Shown here piece by piece: positions 16,286 to 41,125 of a DNA stretch of 46,666 nt. A program made the position numbers and the translations under genes. The stretch is from positions 1-46,666 of IMG/VR virus record IMGVR_UViG_3300028399_000003. One strand, written 5' to 3'. The notes below the pieces were generated by a model. The model saw only the letters and a program-made list of their open reading frames with translations, was not told where the DNA came from and did not search any database. Origin of the DNA: a virus. Within the stretch, counting starts at the first letter, position 1. Each line of letters begins with the position of its first letter.

Positions 16286-16938
16286 TGTATGGGTGGCGGA
16301 CCATTCGGGCCCTGCTTCTGGAGGCTATGGCCTCCCTGAGCAAGGTGGAGGATTTGGCCAAGGTCGAGGACGCCCTTCAGGAATTGTACAAGTTGCACGA
16401 GGTCCTGGACCTCGAAGATATCAATATGCGGAAGGACCTGGCCTACGTGCTCATGTCCTCGGCGTACCTGCACAGGCTGCCGGTCGAGGGCCGCAAGGCG
16501 GTGTTGAGCGAGGTCTGGCCCCAGGACTGGAAGACGCCTCGGGGCCGGAGCACGGTCAACATGTGGCTGGGCAGCCGCCGGCACATGTCCACCAGAAGGC
16601 TGCTGAGGCTGGCGTGTCTCAGGCTGTGGAGGTTCTACCAGCGGGAGCGGATGATTCGGGAGCTTCTGTTCTGCCTGGAGGAGGAATGGGAGGGCCTGAG
16701 CCGTTACACCCAGAATGCCGTTGCCAAAATCAGGGACTACAACGCCAAGTATCCGGCGGCTGTTGGCGTTTATCCCAAGGAGAGGTGGAGGACGCCGGCC
16801 TCCATCAAGAAGCTCATGGAGGAGTGCAAGCATGGGGAGGATTTGGCTGCGGAGCTGGCGGACAGGGAGCCTGCCGATTACAAGGAGATTGCCCAAGACA
16901 TCGAAGAACAGTTGCAGGGGGAGAATGAAGAAGAATGA
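16285..16938 (+). CDS. Hypothetical protein with possible HTH, upstream of polymerase
   Basis: 217 residues; the ATG at 16285 overlaps the previous stop as TGATG (a GTG one codon earlier is also possible). All helical. RGRSTVNMWLGSRRHMSTRRLLRLACL looks like the recognition half of an XRE-type helix-turn-helix. Its stop overlaps the polymerase start (ATGA), so it may regulate or accompany replication. No family recognised. Confidence 0.6.
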   Translation: MYGWRTIRALLLEAMASLSKVEDLAKVEDALQELYKLHEVLDLEDINMRKDLAYVLMSSAYLHRLPVEGRKAVLSEVWPQDWKTPRGRSTVNMWLGSRRHMSTRRLLRLACLRLWRFYQRERMIRELLFCLEEEWEGLSRYTQNAVAKIRDYNAKYPAAVGVYPKERWRTPASIKKLMEECKHGEDLAAELADREPADYKEIAQDIEEQLQGENEEE

Positions 16939-19274
16939 AGAGATACTATGCGGAGGGGCCGCAACCTGCCAGGGTGCTGATTGTAGGGGAGGCGCCCGGC
17001 GCCCAGGAGGTTGAGCAGGGCCGCCCTTTCATCGGGGCCTCTGGGCATGAGCTGCGAAGGATGCTTTTGCAGGCGGGGTTCAAGCCCACGGACCACAGGC
17101 TCAACGGCTTCGAGGATGTGCGGATTACCAATGTCTGCCACGTGCAGCCGCCCCGCAACGACATCTCCAAGTTCTTTGGGACAAGGCACAACAATTGCGG
17201 GGTATATCTCAATGGGAGGTGGCCGGACAAGCCTGTCATCGAGGGCCTGGACCTCCTGGAGCATGAGGTCAGGAAGACTGACCCTGATGTGATTATTGCC
17301 CTGGGCGCTACGGCGCTGTGGGCCCTGACCGGCCAGGTGAAAATCGGCGATTGGCGGGGCTCGCGGATGCAGGCCCTTGAGCGGTTCGGCAAGCGGACCG
17401 TGTTTCCGACGTACCATCCGGCGGCCATTCTCAGGCAATGGAGCATGAGGTATATCGCGGTGCGGGACCTCATGCGGGCCTGCGCCTGGGTGGACCCCGC
17501 CAAGCGCCATCCTGCACCTGAACCCAACGTGAGAATAGGAGAGACTTATGAGGAAGCCAATCTTTGTCTTGACCTTGTCGAAGCTGCCCTACGGCATCGG
17601 CCACAAGTGGAGATTGCTGTTGACCTGGAGACCCGAGGCAAAACCTTCATCGAGTGCATTGGGCTTGCGTGGTCGGACCGGGACGCAATAGTCATTCCCT
17701 TCAGCTCGACCAACTATCCCAACCTGTGGTCCGAAGAAGAAGAGATTTCGCTGGTCCGCAGGCTCAAGGCCATTCTGGAGCATCCCAAGGCCTACATCAT
17801 CGGCCAGAATTTCGTCTATGACATGCAGTTCCTGGCGGCGAGGTGGGGTATCAAGCCCCGCTGTCATTTCGACACCATGCTTGCGCATCATGTGGCGTTC
17901 GTGGGCCTGCCCAAGTCCCTGGCCTTCATGGCTTCGCTGTACCTGGAGGACTACCAGTTCTGGAAGTATATGGGCCGGGAGCAGGACCACCAGCTCTGGC
18001 TCTACAATGGCCTGGACTGCATCAATACCTGGCGCCTGTACCCGGTGCTATCCGACTCGTTGAGGTCCATGGGCCTGTGGGAACTGTTCGAGTTCCAGAT
18101 GGGCCTTCAGGCCCCGGTCCTCGAAATGATGTTCCGGGGCCTGCGGCTGCACAACTCCAAGCGCAAGAAGTTCAATGAGGCGGTGCAGGCCGAGATGGAC
18201 GAGATTCTGGCGTACCTGGTCAAGGCCACCGAGGACCCTGAGTTCAATCCCAGGAGCCCGCAGAAACTCATGAAGCTGTTTTACGAGGACATGGGCATCA
18301 AACCCTACATCAACAGGAAGACGGGAAATCCTACGGTGGATGCCGAGGCCCTGGAGCGCATCAGCAAGAAGGAGCCGCTGCTTCGGCCCATCTGCTCCCG
18401 CATCAAGAAATACCGGGAGCTGGGTACTCTGAAAAGCACCTTCCTGGAGGCGAGGGATGACCCGGATGGACGGCTGCGGTGCGAGTTCAAGATTCATGGG
18501 ACTGAGACCTACAGGTTCAGCTCCTCGGAGAATGCCTTTGGCATGGGCCTCAACGCCCAGAACCTGCCGCCGGCCTTCAAGACCCTGGTGTACCCGGACG
18601 AGGGCTACGTGCTGGTGGAGTGCGACCTGGAGCGGGCAGACCTCCAGGTGGTGGTCTGGGAGGCCGACGACGAGGAATTGAAGCAGGCCCTGCGCGAGGG
18701 CGAAGACATCCATTGGGTCAATGCTCGGGCCATCTTCGGCCCCAGGGCCACCGAATATCACAGGAAGCTGGCCAAGGCGGCCTGCCATGCCATGAACTAT
18801 GGGGTGGCGGCTCGCACCCTGGCAGCCACCCTGGGATTGACTGTGAAGGAAGCCGAGGACATCATCAACCGGTGGTTCTCGGCGCACCCCGGCATCCGGG
18901 AGTGGCATCGCAGGACCCAGCATCTTCTTGAGACCGAGCGGATGGTGACGAACCGGTTTGGCTACCGGCGGTACTACTTCGACCGGATTGAACATCTGTT
19001 GCCGCAGGCCCTGGCGTGGGTCGGCCAGAGCACGGTGGCCTGCGTGACCAACCGGGGGCTCAAGGCAATCCACGACAGGCTGCCCGAGGTGCAGCTGCTG
19101 GGCCAGATTCACGATTCCGTCGTATGTCAGGTGCCCAAGGGCCGGGTGCTCGGGCTGGTTCCTGAAATCGTCGAGTGCATGAAGGTGCCTGTGCCCTACG
19201 ACGACCCCCTGATTATTGGGGTGGAGGCCAAAATCTCTGAGGGGAGTTGGGCGGATGCCGAGAAGTTGCCGTAA
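16935..19274 (+). CDS. polA: Uracil-DNA glycosylase / DNA polymerase I fusion
   Basis: 779 residues. Residues 1-185 are a family 4/5-type uracil-DNA glycosylase (GEAPG at 18-22, RPFIGASG, HPAAILR at 161-167). It lacks the usual N-terminal CxxC, so its Fe-S cluster is probably missing or altered. Residues 225-370 are a 3'-5' exonuclease with intact motifs DLET (230-233), NFVYD (292-296) and YNGLD (357-361). The family A polymerase follows: motif A Asp564, motif B Arg610/Lys614/Tyr622, motif C HDS 726-728. His618 occupies the position of E. coli Phe762. This is the replicative polymerase; the glycosylase may remove uracil as the strand is copied. Confidence 0.9.
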   Translation: MKRYYAEGPQPARVLIVGEAPGAQEVEQGRPFIGASGHELRRMLLQAGFKPTDHRLNGFEDVRITNVCHVQPPRNDISKFFGTRHNNCGVYLNGRWPDKPVIEGLDLLEHEVRKTDPDVIIALGATALWALTGQVKIGDWRGSRMQALERFGKRTVFPTYHPAAILRQWSMRYIAVRDLMRACAWVDPAKRHPAPEPNVRIGETYEEANLCLDLVEAALRHRPQVEIAVDLETRGKTFIECIGLAWSDRDAIVIPFSSTNYPNLWSEEEEISLVRRLKAILEHPKAYIIGQNFVYDMQFLAARWGIKPRCHFDTMLAHHVAFVGLPKSLAFMASLYLEDYQFWKYMGREQDHQLWLYNGLDCINTWRLYPVLSDSLRSMGLWELFEFQMGLQAPVLEMMFRGLRLHNSKRKKFNEAVQAEMDEILAYLVKATEDPEFNPRSPQKLMKLFYEDMGIKPYINRKTGNPTVDAEALERISKKEPLLRPICSRIKKYRELGTLKSTFLEARDDPDGRLRCEFKIHGTETYRFSSSENAFGMGLNAQNLPPAFKTLVYPDEGYVLVECDLERADLQVVVWEADDEELKQALREGEDIHWVNARAIFGPRATEYHRKLAKAACHAMNYGVAARTLAATLGLTVKEAEDIINRWFSAHPGIREWHRRTQHLLETERMVTNRFGYRRYYFDRIEHLLPQALAWVGQSTVACVTNRGLKAIHDRLPEVQLLGQIHDSVVCQVPKGRVLGLVPEIVECMKVPVPYDDPLIIGVEAKISEGSWADAEKLP

Positions 19275-20469: not shown

Positions 20470-20771
20470 ACCTGAAGATGGCAGCCAAGCTCGACCGCAT
20501 GATTTCCGACCTGCTCTACCAGTATCCCCGGTATCCGGGAGCCAGCACCTATGGCCAGTGCTCCGTGGACGGCTGCAACAATACCGCCAGGGGTTCCAGG
20601 GCCTGCCCGGAGTGCCTGGAGAAGGAGCTGGCCGCCTTCCTGGGTAGCGATGATTATGCAGCCAGCCTGCACTCAGCCGTGCGTCTGACCAGCGAGCTGA
20701 TTCACGGCGCCTACGACATCGCCGAGCGCCGCTTCAAGGGGAAGTCTGAACTTCGGGAAACGCCCTCTTGA
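20466..20771 (+). CDS. Small zinc-binding protein, last rightward gene
   Basis: 101 residues, start overlapping the helicase stop as ATGA. CSVDGCNNTARGSRACPECLEK is a four-Cys zinc site (about 34-53), flanked by helices. It overlaps the 3' end of the leftward giant gene by 38 bases, so the two arms meet tail to tail with no room for a classical bidirectional terminator. Confidence 0.65.
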   Translation: MNLKMAAKLDRMISDLLYQYPRYPGASTYGQCSVDGCNNTARGSRACPECLEKELAAFLGSDDYAASLHSAVRLTSELIHGAYDIAERRFKGKSELRETPS

Positions 20772-23700
20772 CCTCGGCGGCCACCGGCACCAGGCCCTTC
20801 TCCACCGGGATGCCGGTCTCCCGAGCCCGGGCCCGCCGCCGGCGCTCCTCGACGCTGCGCTGGAGTACCTTGGGCGTCAGCCGCAGCTTGAAGTGGGGCA
20901 CAGCCTGGTTGAACTGGCGGATGGCCTCGCGCACGTCCTTGAGGCCCTCGGGGTCCCTGACCCGGGTCACGTACTCGTACTGCATGAGCAGGCGCTTGCG
21001 CCAACTCAGGTAGAACTCCTTGAGGTCCTCCTGGTGCGCTCGCAGCTCGTAGCGCTGGTTCAGCCGCGTGGGCGTGAAGCCGAAGGCCTGGGCAATCAGC
21101 TCGGCCATGTGCTGGGAGTCATAGGGGTCGAAGGGCACTACCACGCCACCGCCCTTGAACTCCTCGGCCTCCCGCTCGTACAAGCGCCAGGCCCGATTCG
21201 CCGCCTTCATGGCCGAGGGCATGGCCCGCTCCCACCGCTTCCAGCTGTCGGGGTTGTCGTCGCCTACCGCCTTGAAGAACATGTACGGGATGCCGGCCAC
21301 CGGCCCCATCAGGTCGATGATGGTCCGCCCTGCCTTCTCATCAACAGAGGTTGCCGGCCCGAACAGCTCCTGGGTTCCGGGCAGCATCCGGCCAAGCGAA
21401 ATCGACCCGGAGATGTCCACATTGGGCACAGGGATTCCTACCGAGTTGAGCAGGTGCAGCGGCCCCAGCCCGTAGTACCGGCTCAGCCCATGCATGAAGA
21501 TGTCTGGGTTGTCCGTGAACGTGGTCAGCCACTCCCGAATCGCCAGCCTCACGTCGGTATGGGGGTCCCTGGAGCCCAGGGCCTTCTTGACCCGGGTGGC
21601 GCTCCAGTCGAACAGGTCCATCAGGTTCTCGGCAAAGGGCAGCCCCTGGATGCCAGCCGACACAAACAGCCCCAGCCACACCAGCAGTGCTGTTTTGGCC
21701 CCCTCCCCACCGAACAGCACAAATGCCATGTGCTGCATGAATGTCCAGAACAGGAAGAACACGCTCTTCTTCCCGCGCATGAAGGCCGGCCGCGCCCACT
21801 TGGCATACTCGAACAGGGTGCTTCTTACCGCGTTCTTGGCTACCTCGAAGGCCTGCTCGTAAGTCGCCCCCCGGGACTTGGCCAGCTCGAAGGCGGCTAT
21901 AAACGCGACCCGACGACTTAGCTTCTCCGTCACGCGGAAGGGCAGGGCCCCATAGTAGCTGAGCTGGGCTGTCACCCGGTTGAACTTGTCCGTGGGCAGC
22001 ACCCGCTCCACCAGCGGCCCGTTGACCACCGCCGCAATCTCGGTGGCCAGCGCCTCGTCCAGGAAGCCCTCCCGGATTCCCCTCGCAATCGCACTGCTCA
22101 GGTCCTCGGGCAGCCTCTGCGCCAGCTTCTCGCGGTTCATGGCCGCGGTGGCCAGCGGAATCGCCCTGGAAATCGCCTTGAACGAATCCTTGAAACCGTA
22201 GCGGGTGGCCAGCCAGGGGTAAGTCACCAGCGGCACCTGCGTAAAGTTGACAAGCGCGCTCTTGATATTGAAGCCCAGGTACCACAAGAAACCCAACGCT
22301 CGCAGCGAGGCCAGCTCATTGCCCGGGTTGAAGATGTACTCCTGATGCTTGCGCATGGCATTGATGAGGGCATCCACCTCCCGGGTATCCCCCAACTTCT
22401 CGGCGTAAATCTGCCGCTGCTCCACCAGCCGGCTGATGGTATTCTTCATGGGCTGCTGCCACTGCAACCGGGCAACCATCTTGGCCGCACTCTGCATATA
22501 CAGGGTGAACGCCCGGCGCCCGTCGAGCGAGAAGCCCTTGACCCCCTTCCTGTGAATCATGTGCTGGACGAACGACTTGCCCGGGGTCTGCTTGAGCAGG
22601 TTCTGCCTAATCTGGTTTCTCTGCTCCTCTGACAGCGCAACATCCTTGGTCAGTGCCTCGAAGATGCTGGGCGGCAACCCCATGAACTCGTACTCCTTCT
22701 CCAGCAGCTCGCCCAACGAGGCAATGCCACCATTCTTCACCATCTTCTGCACTTCGGCCGACTTCATCCACAGTTCGGCCTCCTTCGGATTCTCGAAAGT
22801 CCAGAATCCGACGGTGTCGCCCTCGGCGTAGGCCTGCCCATCATGCACCATACCGTTGACGGGCGCCTTGACCGTCACCGTGTACTTGCCAAACCGAGTC
22901 AGTGGGAAATAGTCCTTGTTCCTCAGAACCCTGAAATCCTCCTCGATGCGGCCCAGCTGCACCGCCAAATCCTCCTTGACCTCCTCAGGAATACTCAGCA
23001 CTTCGAGCAGGGCATCCCTGCGCATCTGCACCTCACGATGGCTCAACGGCGTACCGTCCATTGCCGTCTTGATGTTCCACTCCACCACGAACCGCCGGGC
23101 CTTACCCTCATCCTTGATGACTTTCATGGCCGCAGACAGCATCTGCCCGGACTCCAACGCATCCAGAACACGGGGGAACAGCCCCTGGAATCCTCCACCC
23201 CCCAGAAGCATGTTCACAATCTTACGGCCTTCAAGCCCCAACCCATGCTTGGCGTAAATCTTTTCGCGCTCCCTCGGCGTCAGCCTTCTGATTTCGCCGG
23301 CCTTGTGCAGCTCATCACTCTCCAGCGTGATGTCGATGAGGCTCATCCACAGGGCCTGCTCCTGCTTCTTGCCCAGTTTCCGTGCCTGCTCCAGCACAAA
23401 CTCAGTCTCCTCCAGGTAATCCGTGAAGGTCGCATTCCACTGCGTCAACTGCTCCACATACTGGTCAACCAACGGCAGCTTGAATTTCTTGGCAATCTGG
23501 GGCCAGGTCAGCACCCCCAACAGGAGCTTGTTCTTCCACACCCGGGCCAGGCCCTCAACCCGACCCACCGTCGCCCGGTCAGCGCCCAGGGCCTCTGCAT
23601 CCATCGCCTCGGGCGTCGTTACTCGGCCAGCAAAGTACAGGTGAACGTCCTGCTCCTGCTCCTCCAGCGGGATGCTGTACCACTCATTGCCCATTTCATC

Positions 23701-26700
23701 CTTGATAATCTGGCCCTCGGGATACCTGTTCTGCACCCACTCCCAAATCTTCTTGTAGCGGGCCAGCGGCCGCTTCTCGATGAATCCCTCGTGGACCTTG
23801 GCCACCAGTTCGGGAGAAGCCAGGTTGTAGGTGCTCTTGCCCTGGGTGGCCAGCCAGGCCACCTCCTCCTGAATCATCCGCTGCCAAATATCCTTGGCAA
23901 ACAGGTCCCATTTCTTCCCGACCGCCTCCACGAAATCGTAAGCATGGAAGTCCTTGGTCGCATCGACCTCAATCTTGCGGGCCTCCTTGAAAATCTCATC
24001 CACCGCCTTGAGAGTGGCCAGGGGCCCCTGCGCCTCAAGCAACTGCTCCAGCAGCGCCTGGTTCTTGACCCGAGTCCCCGACAGCTCCATCAACCGCTCG
24101 AACTTCGGGGTCAGCTCCGCAACCACCCGGCTCTCGGCACCCAGCTCGGTATTGAGCGCATTGACCGCCTTGGAGGCCTCCTTCACAACTTCGCTGGCCG
24201 CCGCCGCGGTTTCATGCGCACGGACCTGGCTGAACCCCTTGGTACTCTTGATTCTGGCACCCCGCTGCACAATGTCACTCTGGACCTCGAAGACCCAGAC
24301 CGACCCATCCTCGGTCTCCATCGACCTAGTGTGCGCCGCATACCGGGGGTTGTCCCAATGCAGGGCCCCAACAGGCACCCGGGTCCCATCCCGAAACTCC
24401 AGGGTCCGAATCACGGGCTCGCCGGCCTGAACCGAGGGCGGCAACCTGTCCACATGCGCATCCTTGTACGTCCGAGTACTGCGCCCAAGGTCGTACACCA
24501 CCTCGAAGGGCACCAGCCTGGACCGAATCCCCTGCTCCAGCTCCTTCCTGAAAATGGTCCGCTCGGGATGGTCAGCAAGGACAGCCTCCACCAGCGCCCG
24601 CTCCGCCTTGGATGCCGACACCTTGTTCAAATACATCAGCACTTCGGCCTTGGTGAACCGCTCCTTGTCCGGCAGCCCCCGCATCAACCGGGTCGTCACC
24701 TTCTTGACTTCCTCGGGGCTTCTGGCCGCAAACAGGTACTGCGGGTCCAGCAGCCTCTCGGTGTTCACCGCCATGCCCTCGCCCGGCATGGCCCGCAACC
24801 TCCTCTCCAGGCCGCTCAGGAAGAACCGCAAATCATCCTCATTGAGCTTGAGCCCGAAGACCTTGCGCACCCATTCCCGAAGCACTGCCAGCACCTTCTT
24901 CCACACCGGCAGCTCGTAATCCCCCAGCTCGGCCAGCTCGGCCAGTACCTCCTCGGCCAGCTCAATCTCGTTGCCCTTGACCTTCATGCCGCGGGACTTG
25001 GCCATGGCCTCCACCGCCCCGGGCATATCCCTGACAATCGCCTCAAGAATCGCCTTGCGCTCTGCCTTGGGCAGCATCCGCAGCCCGTTGTGCACCATCA
25101 CCTCGTGCAGGTACAGCGCCAGCGCCCGCTCCTTCGACTCAATCCGGTCCAGAATGAACCAGGTGGTCCGGCTCTTGGGGTCGTAAATCGCCTCAGGGAG
25201 GAAGCCCTTGCCAACCCGCTTGGCCGCCACCCGCTGCAACATCCTGGAAGGAAGCTGGGCCGCCGTGGCCACCAGCTTGAGCCGGCCCTCCACGGGAAAC
25301 CGCTTCTCGCCCACCGCCTCAAAAAACTCATCGGCAGTAATTCCACCACGCCGGCCCCCACGCCTTCCCGCGTACAGCGGCCCCTCCTCAAACAGCTCCT
25401 CAATCTCGGCTACCAGGTTGCTCTTGCGGCCCCTGCCCTTGCGGGCCCGGACCCGACTCCTGGCAATCTGCTCATCGACCTCCCGCTCAATCTCCTTGAG
25501 CGCCGCCTCATCCGCCGGCCTTCTTTTCAGTGGCGGCTCACCCTCAATCTTGGCCAGCAGCCGCTCCAGCTTCTCGGCCTCCTCGGCACTCAGCCCCTCG
25601 ACCTTGTCCTTCTCCTCCAGCCGGGCCAGAATCTTCCGCTCCCCGGGCTTCAACGCCGAGAGGTCACGCTCCACCACAGCCTCTTCGGTCGGCAGCGGAC
25701 TCAGGAACTCAGCCACGCCCGGCTCCCCGAACTCCAGGGCCAGCCGCTCAATCTCCTGCTCAATCTCGGCCAGCTGCTGCGCCACCCCCTTGCGCAAAAA
25801 CCCCTTCTTGGTGTAGCTCGTCGGCCTTCTCAGCAGCTCCTCCCGCCTGGCCCTCAACTCCTGGAACCTGGGGTCCTCCTCCAGGCTAACCGCCTCGACC
25901 TCTTCTGCCGCCGGCAAGTCAACCACCTCGACTCCCGAGGGCGTAAACACCTCCACCGAATTTCTGTAGGCATCCCTCAAGGTCTCCTGCCCGAACCCCT
26001 CAACCACAGGAATCTCGGCCGGCCCAGCCTCAGCAGCCCCAGCCTCCTCGGCCCGCTCACCCAGCGGCTCGGTCTCGGGTGGGGTTTCCTCAACAGCCTC
26101 GGGAGTAGTTTCTTCGGCAGCAGAAGGTGGGGTTCCTCCCCCCTCAGGAGACGGCGTTGCGGCCCCACCTCCCCCCTCAGGAGAAGGACCCCCTTCAACC
26201 TCAGGCGCAGGCGCTGTACCCTCTCCGCCACTAGCACCTTCCCCGCCTCCTCCTCGTATTCCGGCCAGGCCGCCAAAGAAGAAGCCAAGGAAGGCGCCGC
26301 CTGCGGCGGCGTTCAGCACCCGGGAAGCCTGCTCCTCGCCCCAGAAATCGTAGTTCTCATCGACCACCTGCCGAGCCGTGATGCCCAGGATTTCCTGCAA
26401 TGACTCGGTCACGGCCTCGCCCGTGGCACCCAGACCGGCCGTCAGGCCCATCCGCTGCAACAGGGTCTTGTCCCTCAGATTGGTGTGCAGCCGCTCAATC
26501 AGCTTCTTGGCCACAGGCAGCTTGAGCCCGAACCGGGCAGCCACGGCCGCGGGGGTCACGATGTCCAGCGCACCGATGGCAGCGCCGAAGGCCAGGGCAG
26601 AGCCGCCCCCAAGCTCCAGGCCCTCATCAATCCGCTCGCCGGCCACCTCCCCAGTGCCAAGAGCAACAGAGGTGGTTGTAGCAGCGCCCAGCCCGCCCCA

Positions 26701-27219
26701 CTTCTGGGCGGCATTGGCCAGGGCCACGGCCGTTCCGGCCTTGACCAGCCCCCGCCCAACCAACCTGCTAATGATGGCACCGGCCCCGAACGAGGCCACG
26801 AGGGAAGCAATGAAGGGCACCTGCTCGCCCAGCAGGTTCGCCGCCCAGGCCACGAATTTCCCTGGCGAGTCGATGTCCTCGATTCGACCAACTTCAGGCG
26901 CTCCGACCGCTTCGGCCTCGGCCACCAGCCGCTCGTAGTCGGCCACCCGATTCCGGGTGAACTCCTCCAGCCCCAGCACATCGCCCAGCGCCGCGCCCGC
27001 AGCGTGGAAGGCCGCCCGAGTCTGAAGAATCCCTCGCTCTAGCCCCTTGGAAAACTCCCCCTGGTCCTCTTCCTCGGGCTGCTCCAGCGGCCCGTACATC
27101 CACTCCGCGGCCTGGTCAAGCGCCTCCAGGTCCGGGGGCACGAAGCTCCCTTCCTCCTCCAGCGGCCCGTAAAGAGCGTCCGCCAGAGCATCCAGGGTCT
27201 GTATCTCATTGGCCGCCAT
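20734..27219 (-). CDS. Giant internal virion (ejection) protein with zincin-like motif
   Basis: 2,161 residues. An Ala/Gly-rich region with hydrophobic helices (about 120-325), then a Pro/Glu/Gly linker (about 325-400) holding two copies of the 15-bp repeat, then a coiled helical part. LHEVMVH (about 704-710) in a helix preceding GLRML is the HExxxH of metallopeptidase-like domains in polyvalent phage proteins. VFEVQSD and a long helical second half follow, with two hydrophobic stretches near the C terminus (FFLFWTFMQHMAFVLFG and ALLVWLGLFVSAGIQG). As the last late gene of a podovirus, it is most likely packaged in the capsid and ejected to form a channel, helped by a protease domain. The ATG is at 27219. 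Confidence 0.75.
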   Translation of the reverse strand: MAANEIQTLDALADALYGPLEEEGSFVPPDLEALDQAAEWMYGPLEQPEEEDQGEFSKGLERGILQTRAAFHAAGAALGDVLGLEEFTRNRVADYERLVAEAEAVGAPEVGRIEDIDSPGKFVAWAANLLGEQVPFIASLVASFGAGAIISRLVGRGLVKAGTAVALANAAQKWGGLGAATTTSVALGTGEVAGERIDEGLELGGGSALAFGAAIGALDIVTPAAVAARFGLKLPVAKKLIERLHTNLRDKTLLQRMGLTAGLGATGEAVTESLQEILGITARQVVDENYDFWGEEQASRVLNAAAGGAFLGFFFGGLAGIRGGGGEGASGGEGTAPAPEVEGGPSPEGGGGAATPSPEGGGTPPSAAEETTPEAVEETPPETEPLGERAEEAGAAEAGPAEIPVVEGFGQETLRDAYRNSVEVFTPSGVEVVDLPAAEEVEAVSLEEDPRFQELRARREELLRRPTSYTKKGFLRKGVAQQLAEIEQEIERLALEFGEPGVAEFLSPLPTEEAVVERDLSALKPGERKILARLEEKDKVEGLSAEEAEKLERLLAKIEGEPPLKRRPADEAALKEIEREVDEQIARSRVRARKGRGRKSNLVAEIEELFEEGPLYAGRRGGRRGGITADEFFEAVGEKRFPVEGRLKLVATAAQLPSRMLQRVAAKRVGKGFLPEAIYDPKSRTTWFILDRIESKERALALYLHEVMVHNGLRMLPKAERKAILEAIVRDMPGAVEAMAKSRGMKVKGNEIELAEEVLAELAELGDYELPVWKKVLAVLREWVRKVFGLKLNEDDLRFFLSGLERRLRAMPGEGMAVNTERLLDPQYLFAARSPEEVKKVTTRLMRGLPDKERFTKAEVLMYLNKVSASKAERALVEAVLADHPERTIFRKELEQGIRSRLVPFEVVYDLGRSTRTYKDAHVDRLPPSVQAGEPVIRTLEFRDGTRVPVGALHWDNPRYAAHTRSMETEDGSVWVFEVQSDIVQRGARIKSTKGFSQVRAHETAAAASEVVKEASKAVNALNTELGAESRVVAELTPKFERLMELSGTRVKNQALLEQLLEAQGPLATLKAVDEIFKEARKIEVDATKDFHAYDFVEAVGKKWDLFAKDIWQRMIQEEVAWLATQGKSTYNLASPELVAKVHEGFIEKRPLARYKKIWEWVQNRYPEGQIIKDEMGNEWYSIPLEEQEQDVHLYFAGRVTTPEAMDAEALGADRATVGRVEGLARVWKNKLLLGVLTWPQIAKKFKLPLVDQYVEQLTQWNATFTDYLEETEFVLEQARKLGKKQEQALWMSLIDITLESDELHKAGEIRRLTPREREKIYAKHGLGLEGRKIVNMLLGGGGFQGLFPRVLDALESGQMLSAAMKVIKDEGKARRFVVEWNIKTAMDGTPLSHREVQMRRDALLEVLSIPEEVKEDLAVQLGRIEEDFRVLRNKDYFPLTRFGKYTVTVKAPVNGMVHDGQAYAEGDTVGFWTFENPKEAELWMKSAEVQKMVKNGGIASLGELLEKEYEFMGLPPSIFEALTKDVALSEEQRNQIRQNLLKQTPGKSFVQHMIHRKGVKGFSLDGRRAFTLYMQSAAKMVARLQWQQPMKNTISRLVEQRQIYAEKLGDTREVDALINAMRKHQEYIFNPGNELASLRALGFLWYLGFNIKSALVNFTQVPLVTYPWLATRYGFKDSFKAISRAIPLATAAMNREKLAQRLPEDLSSAIARGIREGFLDEALATEIAAVVNGPLVERVLPTDKFNRVTAQLSYYGALPFRVTEKLSRRVAFIAAFELAKSRGATYEQAFEVAKNAVRSTLFEYAKWARPAFMRGKKSVFFLFWTFMQHMAFVLFGGEGAKTALLVWLGLFVSAGIQGLPFAENLMDLFDWSATRVKKALGSRDPHTDVRLAIREWLTTFTDNPDIFMHGLSRYYGLGPLHLLNSVGIPVPNVDISGSISLGRMLPGTQELFGPATSVDEKAGRTIIDLMGPVAGIPYMFFKAVGDDNPDSWKRWERAMPSAMKAANRAWRLYEREAEEFKGGGVVVPFDPYDSQHMAELIAQAFGFTPTRLNQRYELRAHQEDLKEFYLSWRKRLLMQYEYVTRVRDPEGLKDVREAIRQFNQAVPHFKLRLTPKVLQRSVEERRRRARARETGIPVEKGLVPVAAEVKRAFPEVQTSP
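26136..26150. repeat. 15-bp dispersed repeat, copy 4
   Basis: Inside the giant internal protein gene, where it encodes SPEGGG in a Pro/Glu/Gly-rich linker. Confidence 0.85.
26169..26183. repeat. 15-bp dispersed repeat, copy 5
   Basis: 33 bases from copy 4 in the same frame and orientation, giving a second SPEGGGG; the pair looks like a local duplication of linker sequence. Confidence 0.85.
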
Positions 27220-39081: not shown

Positions 39082-40179
39082 TTACGGATAGGTAAAGTTG
39101 CCTATATAGCCCATGGTCTTCTCGTGCCGGATTTCCAGGCCAGCGTGAGTCAGCCACTGCCCCTTGATGATATCCTCATCAGGCAGCTGGATATTATCCT
39201 CCAGCTGAGTATCACGCATATACCTATAAATGATGGCACTCGGGTCAATAATGAACATCGAGTTCTTGTACCGACCATGCACGTTCAGCAGCGGATGGGT
39301 CCTTACATACAGAGTCCCCTGCGGCAGAATCCACCGCTGCAACTCCATACCATAGGTCCGCACAACCCCATCGAAGTTCACCCGAGTCGAGCTCGACCGC
39401 TGCGCCAGCTTGTTCAGGGCATTCAGCGCCCCATTACCTGCCAGCACCAGCCGCTCACTCCCGGCGCTCCCGGCATCATAATCGAACACCGGGTACACCG
39501 CATCGAGGAAAGTATCCTCAGTCGGAGTCGTGGTAAAGATGGTCACATTCGACGTAATGAAATGCCGCAGACCACCCGTAAACCACTTAATCTCATTCCC
39601 CGAGGTATCCTCGTAGGGCCGGCCAAACAGCCACGCCAGCTCCAGCGCCACGGAATGGTCAAACATCTTCCGCTTCCGGTCATTCTTCAGCGGGTCCCCA
39701 GTCCGGGCATAAGTCAGCGCAGCCACCTTCGAGATACTGTAAGCCGTCTTAAACAGCTGACAGTAATTGGTCTTCTTGACCGGGTTACGAGTCGAAGTAC
39801 TGGGGCTCCTTCCACCTTCCTCGTAGGTATTCCCAATCTTCGTCAGGTACGAACTCGCAGGAATACCCGCAGCCGTAGTGCCAGCCGCCCCTCTCTTCAC
39901 CACAATAGTCGTATCATTGGTGACACTCGACACCTCCAGCAACTCATTGTCATAAGCCACCGTCTCGGCCTTCTCCACCAGCAGCACATCACCTGGCACC
40001 AAATCCAGACCGCCAGCAGTCAGACCAATGGTCGTCGAAGTGCTCGCCGCCCCGGTGGAATCGACCTGAACCCGAATCGGATTCAGCTCCTCTTCCCACC
40101 ACGAGAACTCGACATCATTCACCTTCTCCGACTTCATCCGCGCCATCAGCGCCGTCAGCGGCGCACTGCCATTCGGATT
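39082..40179 (-). CDS. Major capsid protein, exon 2 (HK97-fold, SU10/DUF5309-like)
   Basis: 365 residues continuing from exon 1 (41039-41125) after removal of the intron, for 394 in all. Codons before the first ATG at 40146 read NPNGSAPLTAL and then MARMKSEKVNDVEFSWWEEE, matching the N-arm of SU10/DUF5309-type capsid proteins. Features: DVLLVEKAETVAYDNELLEV, an E-loop-like LTKIGNTYEEGG, then NYCQLFKTAYSISKVA and LVLAGNGALNALNK, and a C-terminal domain with HPLLNVHGRYKNSMFIIDP. Gene order (portal, scaffold, capsid) supports it. If only the ATG at 40146 were used, the capsid would lack its first 40 residues. Confidence 0.8.
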   Translation of the reverse strand, partial: NPNGSAPLTALMARMKSEKVNDVEFSWWEEELNPIRVQVDSTGAASTSTTIGLTAGGLDLVPGDVLLVEKAETVAYDNELLEVSSVTNDTTIVVKRGAAGTTAAGIPASSYLTKIGNTYEEGGRSPSTSTRNPVKKTNYCQLFKTAYSISKVAALTYARTGDPLKNDRKRKMFDHSVALELAWLFGRPYEDTSGNEIKWFTGGLRHFITSNVTIFTTTPTEDTFLDAVYPVFDYDAGSAGSERLVLAGNGALNALNKLAQRSSSTRVNFDGVVRTYGMELQRWILPQGTLYVRTHPLLNVHGRYKNSMFIIDPSAIIYRYMRDTQLEDNIQLPDEDIIKGQWLTHAGLEIRHEKTMGYIGNFTYP

Positions 40180-41038
40180 CCCTACGTTCAGCCAGGCCCG
40201 CTACCTCCTGGCCCGTCCCCCTCAGGGACCGCCCCGAAGTTTCCCTCGGGGGTCGGACTATATCTTCACGCCAAAGACGTGCCGCGCACTTCGAGCCGCT
40301 TGGCCCTACCACTAGTCTCTGAGGATTCATCCCGAAACCTGGCCTCCAACCTCTCCTGCTTCCTGGCCGCCACGAAGTACCCCCGACGCCAATACTCCTC
40401 CGCATTCAACGTCATCCGGTACCCCACTCTCGCATGGCGCAAATCCTGCACCACACTCCCGCAGCCAATCCCAAGGTTCCTGGCCAACCCCCTGACAGCA
40501 TCCACCAACCCCAGCTCACAATTCGTGAACCTCACGGTGACATACCGCCCATTCCTCTCAACAGAACCATCCGAGTCCATCAGCCCAGCCAACACCTCTC
40601 TCTGCACTGCCAGCTCCTCCCCAAAATACTCCCGGGGAACAACTCGCCGCATCAAGGTGTTACCGGCCAACCACTCCCAAACATCCCTGCTACAAACAAT
40701 CAGGCACCCAACCGGCGCCCTACCCTCCCTGCGTCTCACCCGAATGGTCCCACCATTGCCAAAAACCTCGGCCAGCTGCCTGGACACCTTCTCAAGGCAC
40801 TCCAAATCAGGCTTCTCAAACCTGACCTGAAAACTGCCCCGGGACCTGGCCACATATAAGTGACCATCCCCCAGAAAGAACCCGACAGCATACGCCAGCT
40901 TTCGGAACTCCTCCTGCTGATTACCCATTGTTACATCCAGTCAACTTTCGCTCTTGGGCCCGACTGGCTTTAGGGCTTCCCAGCATTTCACGCGGTTATC
41001 CCAGGTCAATCACCTCCAAACCCGGGGCGCAATCACTT
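40180..41038 (-). other. Group I intron in the capsid gene
   Basis: 859 bp. The 5' exon end GGCGT pairs with GCGCC (41030-41026) to form P1 with the required U-G pair at the splice site and an 8-base loop. The intron ends in G before AAT of exon 2. AAGATATAGTCC (40266-40255) is the canonical S element of P7, and GTTGACTGG (40945-40937) can supply the pairing R strand. AATGCTGGGAAGCCC-TAAAGCC near the 5' part resembles P/Q. The homing endonuclease frame fills the loop between R and S (P8). Confidence 0.85.
40266..40928 (-). CDS. LAGLIDADG homing endonuclease (intron-encoded)
   Basis: 220 residues with two motifs, YAVGFFLGDGHL near the start and VLAGLMDSDGSV near residue 115, the paired acidic residues (GDG, SDG) expected of a single-chain LAGLIDADG nuclease. 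It would cut intron-less capsid genes to spread the intron and may assist splicing. Its TGA stop overlaps the intron S element. ATG at 40928. Confidence 0.9.
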   Translation of the reverse strand: MGNQQEEFRKLAYAVGFFLGDGHLYVARSRGSFQVRFEKPDLECLEKVSRQLAEVFGNGGTIRVRRREGRAPVGCLIVCSRDVWEWLAGNTLMRRVVPREYFGEELAVQREVLAGLMDSDGSVERNGRYVTVRFTNCELGLVDAVRGLARNLGIGCGSVVQDLRHARVGYRMTLNAEEYWRRGYFVAARKQERLEARFRDESSETSGRAKRLEVRGTSLA

Positions 41039-41125
41039 ACGCCAAAGAATCATCTCACGGAAGTTCTTGGGGCGCTCATCAGTACCCCAATCCCCCGTTC
41101 CTCTCAGTCCAGCAATTGCAACCAT
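41039..41125 (-). CDS. Major capsid protein, exon 1
   Basis: 29 codons: MVAIAGLRGTGDWGTDERP and then KNFREMILWR, after which the frame meets a stop two codons into the intron. GGAGAGGTG lies upstream of the ATG. The end ILWR joined to exon 2 NPNGSAPLTAL restores a continuous capsid N terminus. The last five bases GGCGT pair with an internal guide in the intron. Confidence 0.75.

Follow-up and report, generated by a model that had tools for sequence, protein, structure and literature searches.

A major capsid gene in two parts

The window, by which we mean the whole 46,666-nucleotide stretch that was analysed (positions 1 to 46,666 of IMG/VR record IMGVR_UViG_3300028399_000003), is one single virus contig. 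Its minus strand carries, in order, a terminase gene, an SU10-type portal gene, a small ORF, a gene without a Pfam match and the gene for the major capsid protein (Table 1). The ORF caller began the capsid gene at an ATG at position 40146 and gave a protein of 354 aa, with no Shine-Dalgarno-like sequence ahead of this start; such a sequence, GGAGAGG, lies upstream of a short exon on the far side of an insert. An earlier note on this DNA had proposed that this exon of 29 codons and a second exon give a continuous capsid N terminus and that gene calling would lose the first 40 residues, and we found both to be so: joined, the exons make 394 codons (394 aa) with no stop, and the N terminus is restored. 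Without splicing, exon 1 is read as MVAIAGLRGTGDWGTDERPKNFREMILWRK and then ends, since the insert, read in frame, has a stop as its second codon (CGT|AAG TGA).

Joining the exons also improved the family match. The score for SU10_MCP (PF17236) rose from 133.3 to 139.2 bits (cutoff 24.1), the E-value went from 1.6e-38 for the part beginning at ATG 40146 to 2.6e-40 for the spliced product, and the first matched profile position moved from 34 to 12. A solved capsid chain, 9in6_M, matched with an E-value of 3e-112 in an alignment that spans residues 1-390, the exon 1 part included. The PF17236 match above cutoff and the portal gene nearby identify this as an SU10-type capsid gene.

Table 1. Features of the split capsid locus in the window; the last three rows are loci from the motif scan
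Feature	Coordinates	Strand	Evidence and remarks
SU10_portal gene	44212-42323	(−)	Pfam
Major capsid gene, exon 1	41125-41039	(−)	87 nt, 29 codons, end ...ATTCTTTGGCGT; joined translation and homologous uninterrupted N terminus in relatives
Intron (insert)	41038-40180	(−)	859 nt, last base G; RF00028 matches, helices, absent from 104/104 readable relatives
Major capsid gene, exon 2	40179-39082	(−)	Includes stop codon; SU10_MCP family, Pfam PF17236
Peptide stretch MVAIAGLRGTGDWGTDERPKNFR			Predicted capsid product
Internal guide GAUUGCGCC	41026-41034	(−)	Intron bases 5-13; 9/9 pairs
P2 hairpin CCGGGU/ACCUGG	41001-41025	(−)	6/6 pairs; by hand
P3 CCGCGUG/UGCGCGG	5' strand 40989-40995, 3' strand 40288-40282	(−)	7/7 pairs, two G.U; by hand
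P4 (UGCUGG/UCAGCA), P5 (GCCC/GGGU) and extra hairpin P5a	40915-40985	(−)	RF00028 P4/P5 columns, weak alone
LAGLIDADG homing endonuclease ORF	40928-40266	(−)	220 aa, intact; motifs GFFLGDGHL and LAGLMDSDGS
P6 UCCUC/GAGGA	3' strand 40321-40325, partner 40913-40909	(−)	5/5 pairs; by hand
P7 domain, GACUA/UAGUC	40256-40317 (strands 40317-40313 and 40260-40256)	(−)	RF00028 alignment
P9 hairpin CCCCGAGG-GAAA-CUUCGGGG	40232-40251	(−)	RF00028 alignment; sequence-changed hairpin at the same place in L032-L037
P9.1 and P9.2 hairpins	40191-40229	(−)	5/5 and 6/6 pairs; by hand
L032 group I intron	1463-1722	(−)	RF00028, 72.8 bits
L035	6804-8647		Split major head gene (phrog_1357), group I-like intron, LAGLIDADG_2 ORF
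L036	2053-3919		Split major head gene (phrog_1357), group I-like intron, LAGLIDADG_2 ORF

Relatives with an uninterrupted gene

Two scans of viral contigs, contributing 27 capsid loci and the best 80 of 193 relatives with two locus ids shared, gave 105 capsid loci; by contig name these represent 88 distinct contigs, 19 of which occur in both scans. The joined N terminus (the RPKNFREMILWR-NPNGSAPL stretch) was continuous in 104 of the 105, a call made by pattern for 101 loci and by eye for L106, L116 and L117. In the remaining locus, L011, the gene starts downstream of this stretch. These counts are no estimate of how rare the intron is among relatives, because the best 80 of 193 were picked by rank of match, and such a ranking favours genes without an interruption. 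Neither scan turned up another contig carrying this insert, and there was no DNA near-identical to the window among phage records.

An alignment of 18 capsid sequences, drawn from 18 of the 27 loci of the first scan, places the insertion point after R29, which is nearly invariant, and before the invariant P31-N32-G33. Thirteen residues of exon 1 (G6, R8, G9, T10, D12, E17, R18, P19, K20, F22, R23, I26 and L27) are invariant in these 18 sequences. In DNA, identity to the best relatives over the 63 bases of the site is 84%, and 10 of 67 distinct site sequences could form all pairs with the 9-base guide of the intron.

Predicted splice sites and ribozyme core

The exon boundary can slide by 0, 1 or 2 nt with the same protein product, and only a slide of 0 places a U before the intron and a G at its end (40180). 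In this register the end of exon 1, GGCGU (41043-41039), pairs with GCGCC of the guide to form P1, with a U.G pair at the splice site, while the start of exon 2, AAUC (40179-40176), pairs with GAUU of the guide to form P10. P1 and P10 make one gapless duplex of nine pairs. When the first 25 nt of the intron were shuffled 100000 times, its equal was reached 358 times; of the 93282 stretches of 25 nt in the window, 170 reached it. The P1 with its U.G pair, the terminal G and the AAGATATAGTCC element that the earlier note had pointed out are all present.

The conserved core from P3 to P9 could be laid out with its P7 pseudoknot, with P4/P5, P7, P9 and J8/7 aligned to the group I model RF00028 and P3, P6 and P8 placed by hand, as were P2, P5a, P7.1, P9.1 and P9.2. 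The 3' strand of P3, P8 (40281-40267) and J8/7 lie between the two strands of P7. P3 is the least certain helix of the core; an alternative found by eye, ACCGC/GUGGU, was set aside for CCGCGUG/UGCGCGG, which is longer and has a 3' strand that fits the RF00028 alignment. RF00028 matched 40395-40233 with 20.8 bits. With only the 3' half as input the score was 21.8 bits (E 7.6e-4, all 4227 families searched), and P7, J8/7 and P9 fell into place; the 5' part on its own gave 8.9 bits (E 5.7, which taken alone is not significant), with P4 and P5 aligned across the start of the endonuclease ORF. The covariance search that had been suggested as a check was positive for the 3' half, with a score that stayed below the cutoff: at the gathering score of 50 there was no RF00028 match in the whole window. 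The curators set this score as the limit for listing matches automatically, and it does not describe the molecule itself; the approximately 580 nt of ORF inside the P6 loop (40908-40326) probably lower the score. The 5' 125 nt folded alone no better than shuffled sequence (z -0.59), and a DNA pattern for the P4-P5 region found nothing in viral_contigs.

An endonuclease ORF that runs through the core

The ORF within the insert matched LAGLIDADG_3 in two stretches (Pfam, E 3.7e-15) and Hom_end (E 5.2e-5). Its bulk forms the P6 loop, and both of its ends reach into the core. The P5 3' strand begins at the last base of the start codon, and the first seven codons span the 3' strands of P5 and P4 and the 5' strand of P6; the end of the ORF encodes the P6 3' strand, the P7 5' strand, the P3 3' strand and P8. 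Of the stop codon (40268-40266), the first two bases close the P8 3' strand (40270-40267) and the third opens J8/7. An overlap of this stop with a P7 strand, as had been claimed, does not hold, since the stop sits at the P8/J8-7 border, five bases before the P7 3' strand.

At the protein level, the endonuclease comes closest to LAGLIDADG domains that sit inside terminase ORFs (L030, L031 and Aeromonas phage AerS_266); because of this location, these relatives do not trace this intron. Searched by pattern, two of five stretches matched in viral_contigs and none of 30 in genome_contigs, and one phage record gave a match. A second copy of the intron, sought by way of the endonuclease in viral_contigs and genome_contigs, was not found, which gives no sign of recent mobility. 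The endonuclease had no match among PDB sequences, and its AlphaFold model was poor (mean pLDDT 50.2), so that no reading rests on it. As a separate observation, the ORFs of terminase large subunits that enclose LAGLIDADG domains lie at 370-2844 in L030, 1819-4695 in L031 and 155484-158879 in OR496884.1; the domains in the L030, L031 and AerS_266 terminases are apparently inteins, and the AerS_266 record annotates its LAGLIDADG-bearing ORF as terminase only.

Interpretation of the insert

Gene structure, intron-free relatives, family matches and guide pairing together suggest that the insert is very probably a mobile group I intron in the conserved N-terminal part of a tailed-phage SU10-type capsid gene. 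The split of the gene by such an intron with a LAGLIDADG gene, as the earlier note had it, agrees with the family matches, the uninterrupted relatives and the intron core alike. We weighed this against an insert that is dead and does not splice, with the capsid protein made from the internal ATG at 40146. The 354-aa ORF from this ATG does exist, and the RF00028 score is below the gathering cutoff; against this, the residues encoded by exon 1 show some of the strongest conservation in the family, judged by the 18 sequences, this ATG lacks a Shine-Dalgarno-like sequence, and the guide, terminal G and core are intact, which makes a dead insert quite improbable.

That the endonuclease interrupts a protein, as an intein or a free-standing gene, and not an RNA, is suggested by its nearest protein relatives in the terminase ORFs. 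We regard this as very improbable, as the in-frame stop at the second codon of the insert leaves no continuous precursor protein, and group I elements are found at both ends of the insert. Least credible is a chimera of metagenomic assembly: the record is a single virus contig and its insert was found in no other, but the borders of the insert match exactly the splice register backed by P1, P10 and the terminal G, and its G+C agrees with its surroundings (0.588 for the insert, 0.590 for the window).

If the insert is a mobile group I intron, we infer its splicing, cutting and mobility from established group I chemistry and homing. The ribozyme would fold in the transcript, P1 would present the 5' splice site with its U.G pair, and P7 would bind the guanosine that attacks this site. 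The last G of the intron would then take the place of the guanosine, and exon 1 would attack the 3' splice site, held by P10, so that the exons are joined as CGU|AAU and the complete 394-residue capsid protein can be made. The endonuclease, with its two LAGLIDADG motifs, most likely cuts intron-free capsid genes at the conserved stretch, and repair of the cut gene would copy the intron in.

The course of the ORF through the core places it in sharp conflict with the folding of the ribozyme. Because the ORF begins in P5/P4/P6 and ends at P8/J8-7, ribosomes translating it would have to unfold the core. It is conceivable, though we think it rather unlikely, that core folding and endonuclease synthesis are mutually exclusive and that a switch between them sets the timing and amount of full-length capsid protein.

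Comparison with other capsid introns

Phage capsid genes that house a group I intron with a LAGLIDADG gene have been published before. One report (PMC3706429) describes such a case in mycobacteriophage LittleE, where the major capsid gene is interrupted by an intron of some 820 bp that carries a LAGLIDADG gene. Splicing of this intron was demonstrated by RT-PCR and N-terminal protein sequencing; its type is given there as unclear, most likely group I. The same report names lactococcal phage Tuc2009 as an earlier case of a group I intron in a capsid gene, which is what it has in common with the intron described here. The LittleE intron shares with ours the U before it, the G at its end, the LAGLIDADG gene and the major capsid gene as its host. 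LittleE has an HK97-like siphovirus capsid and an endonuclease on the opposite strand (PMC3706429), whereas ours interrupts an SU10-type capsid gene and has its ORF on the sense strand, overlapping the core. For SU10-type capsid genes, a literature search brought up no earlier intron, but this is weak evidence only.

A motif scan for the P7 element gave eight loci (L032-L039), three of which (L032, L035 and L036) have interrupted major head genes. Only L032 and L034 (52.1 bits), two short introns that share this core, exceeded the RF00028 cutoff. In six of the eight (L032-L037) the place of P9 is taken by a hairpin that differs in sequence, and L038 has a longer one. The eighth, L039, was rejected as a group I locus, having no P7 5' strand and no fitting P9, and is probably a chance match. 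L032 resembles our intron in lying close to the beginning of a major head gene (phrog_14242) and in its P4 and P7 sequences, and differs in being short, without an endonuclease ORF, and above the Rfam cutoff. L035 and L036 likewise have a major head gene interrupted by a group I-like intron, a LAGLIDADG ORF, the AAGATATAGTCCGACCC element and P9 at the same place; they differ in capsid family (phrog_1357) and in having LAGLIDADG_2 instead of LAGLIDADG_3. On the phrog_1357 profile, exon 1 of L035 covers positions 22-114 and exon 2 positions 115-344. Candidate P7 5' strands in these two loci lie 718-746 nt upstream of J8/7. An ORF that runs into the core is probably not unique to our intron, as those of L035 and L036 seem similar by eye.

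With this case, the SU10-type family would join the capsid families in which group I introns have been seen. It shows how automatic gene calling truncates a capsid protein, and with so many intron-free relatives, homing into a structural gene of high conservation could readily be tested.

Other features of the contig

Elsewhere in the window, the plus strand carries a family A DNA polymerase ORF (16935-19274, 779 aa) that combines in one frame an N-terminal uracil-DNA glycosylase superfamily domain (PF03167, residues 7-172), a 3'-5' exonuclease and the polymerase. Downstream in the structural region, the minus strand has an ORF of 2161 aa (20734-27219), a great length given the size of the contig.
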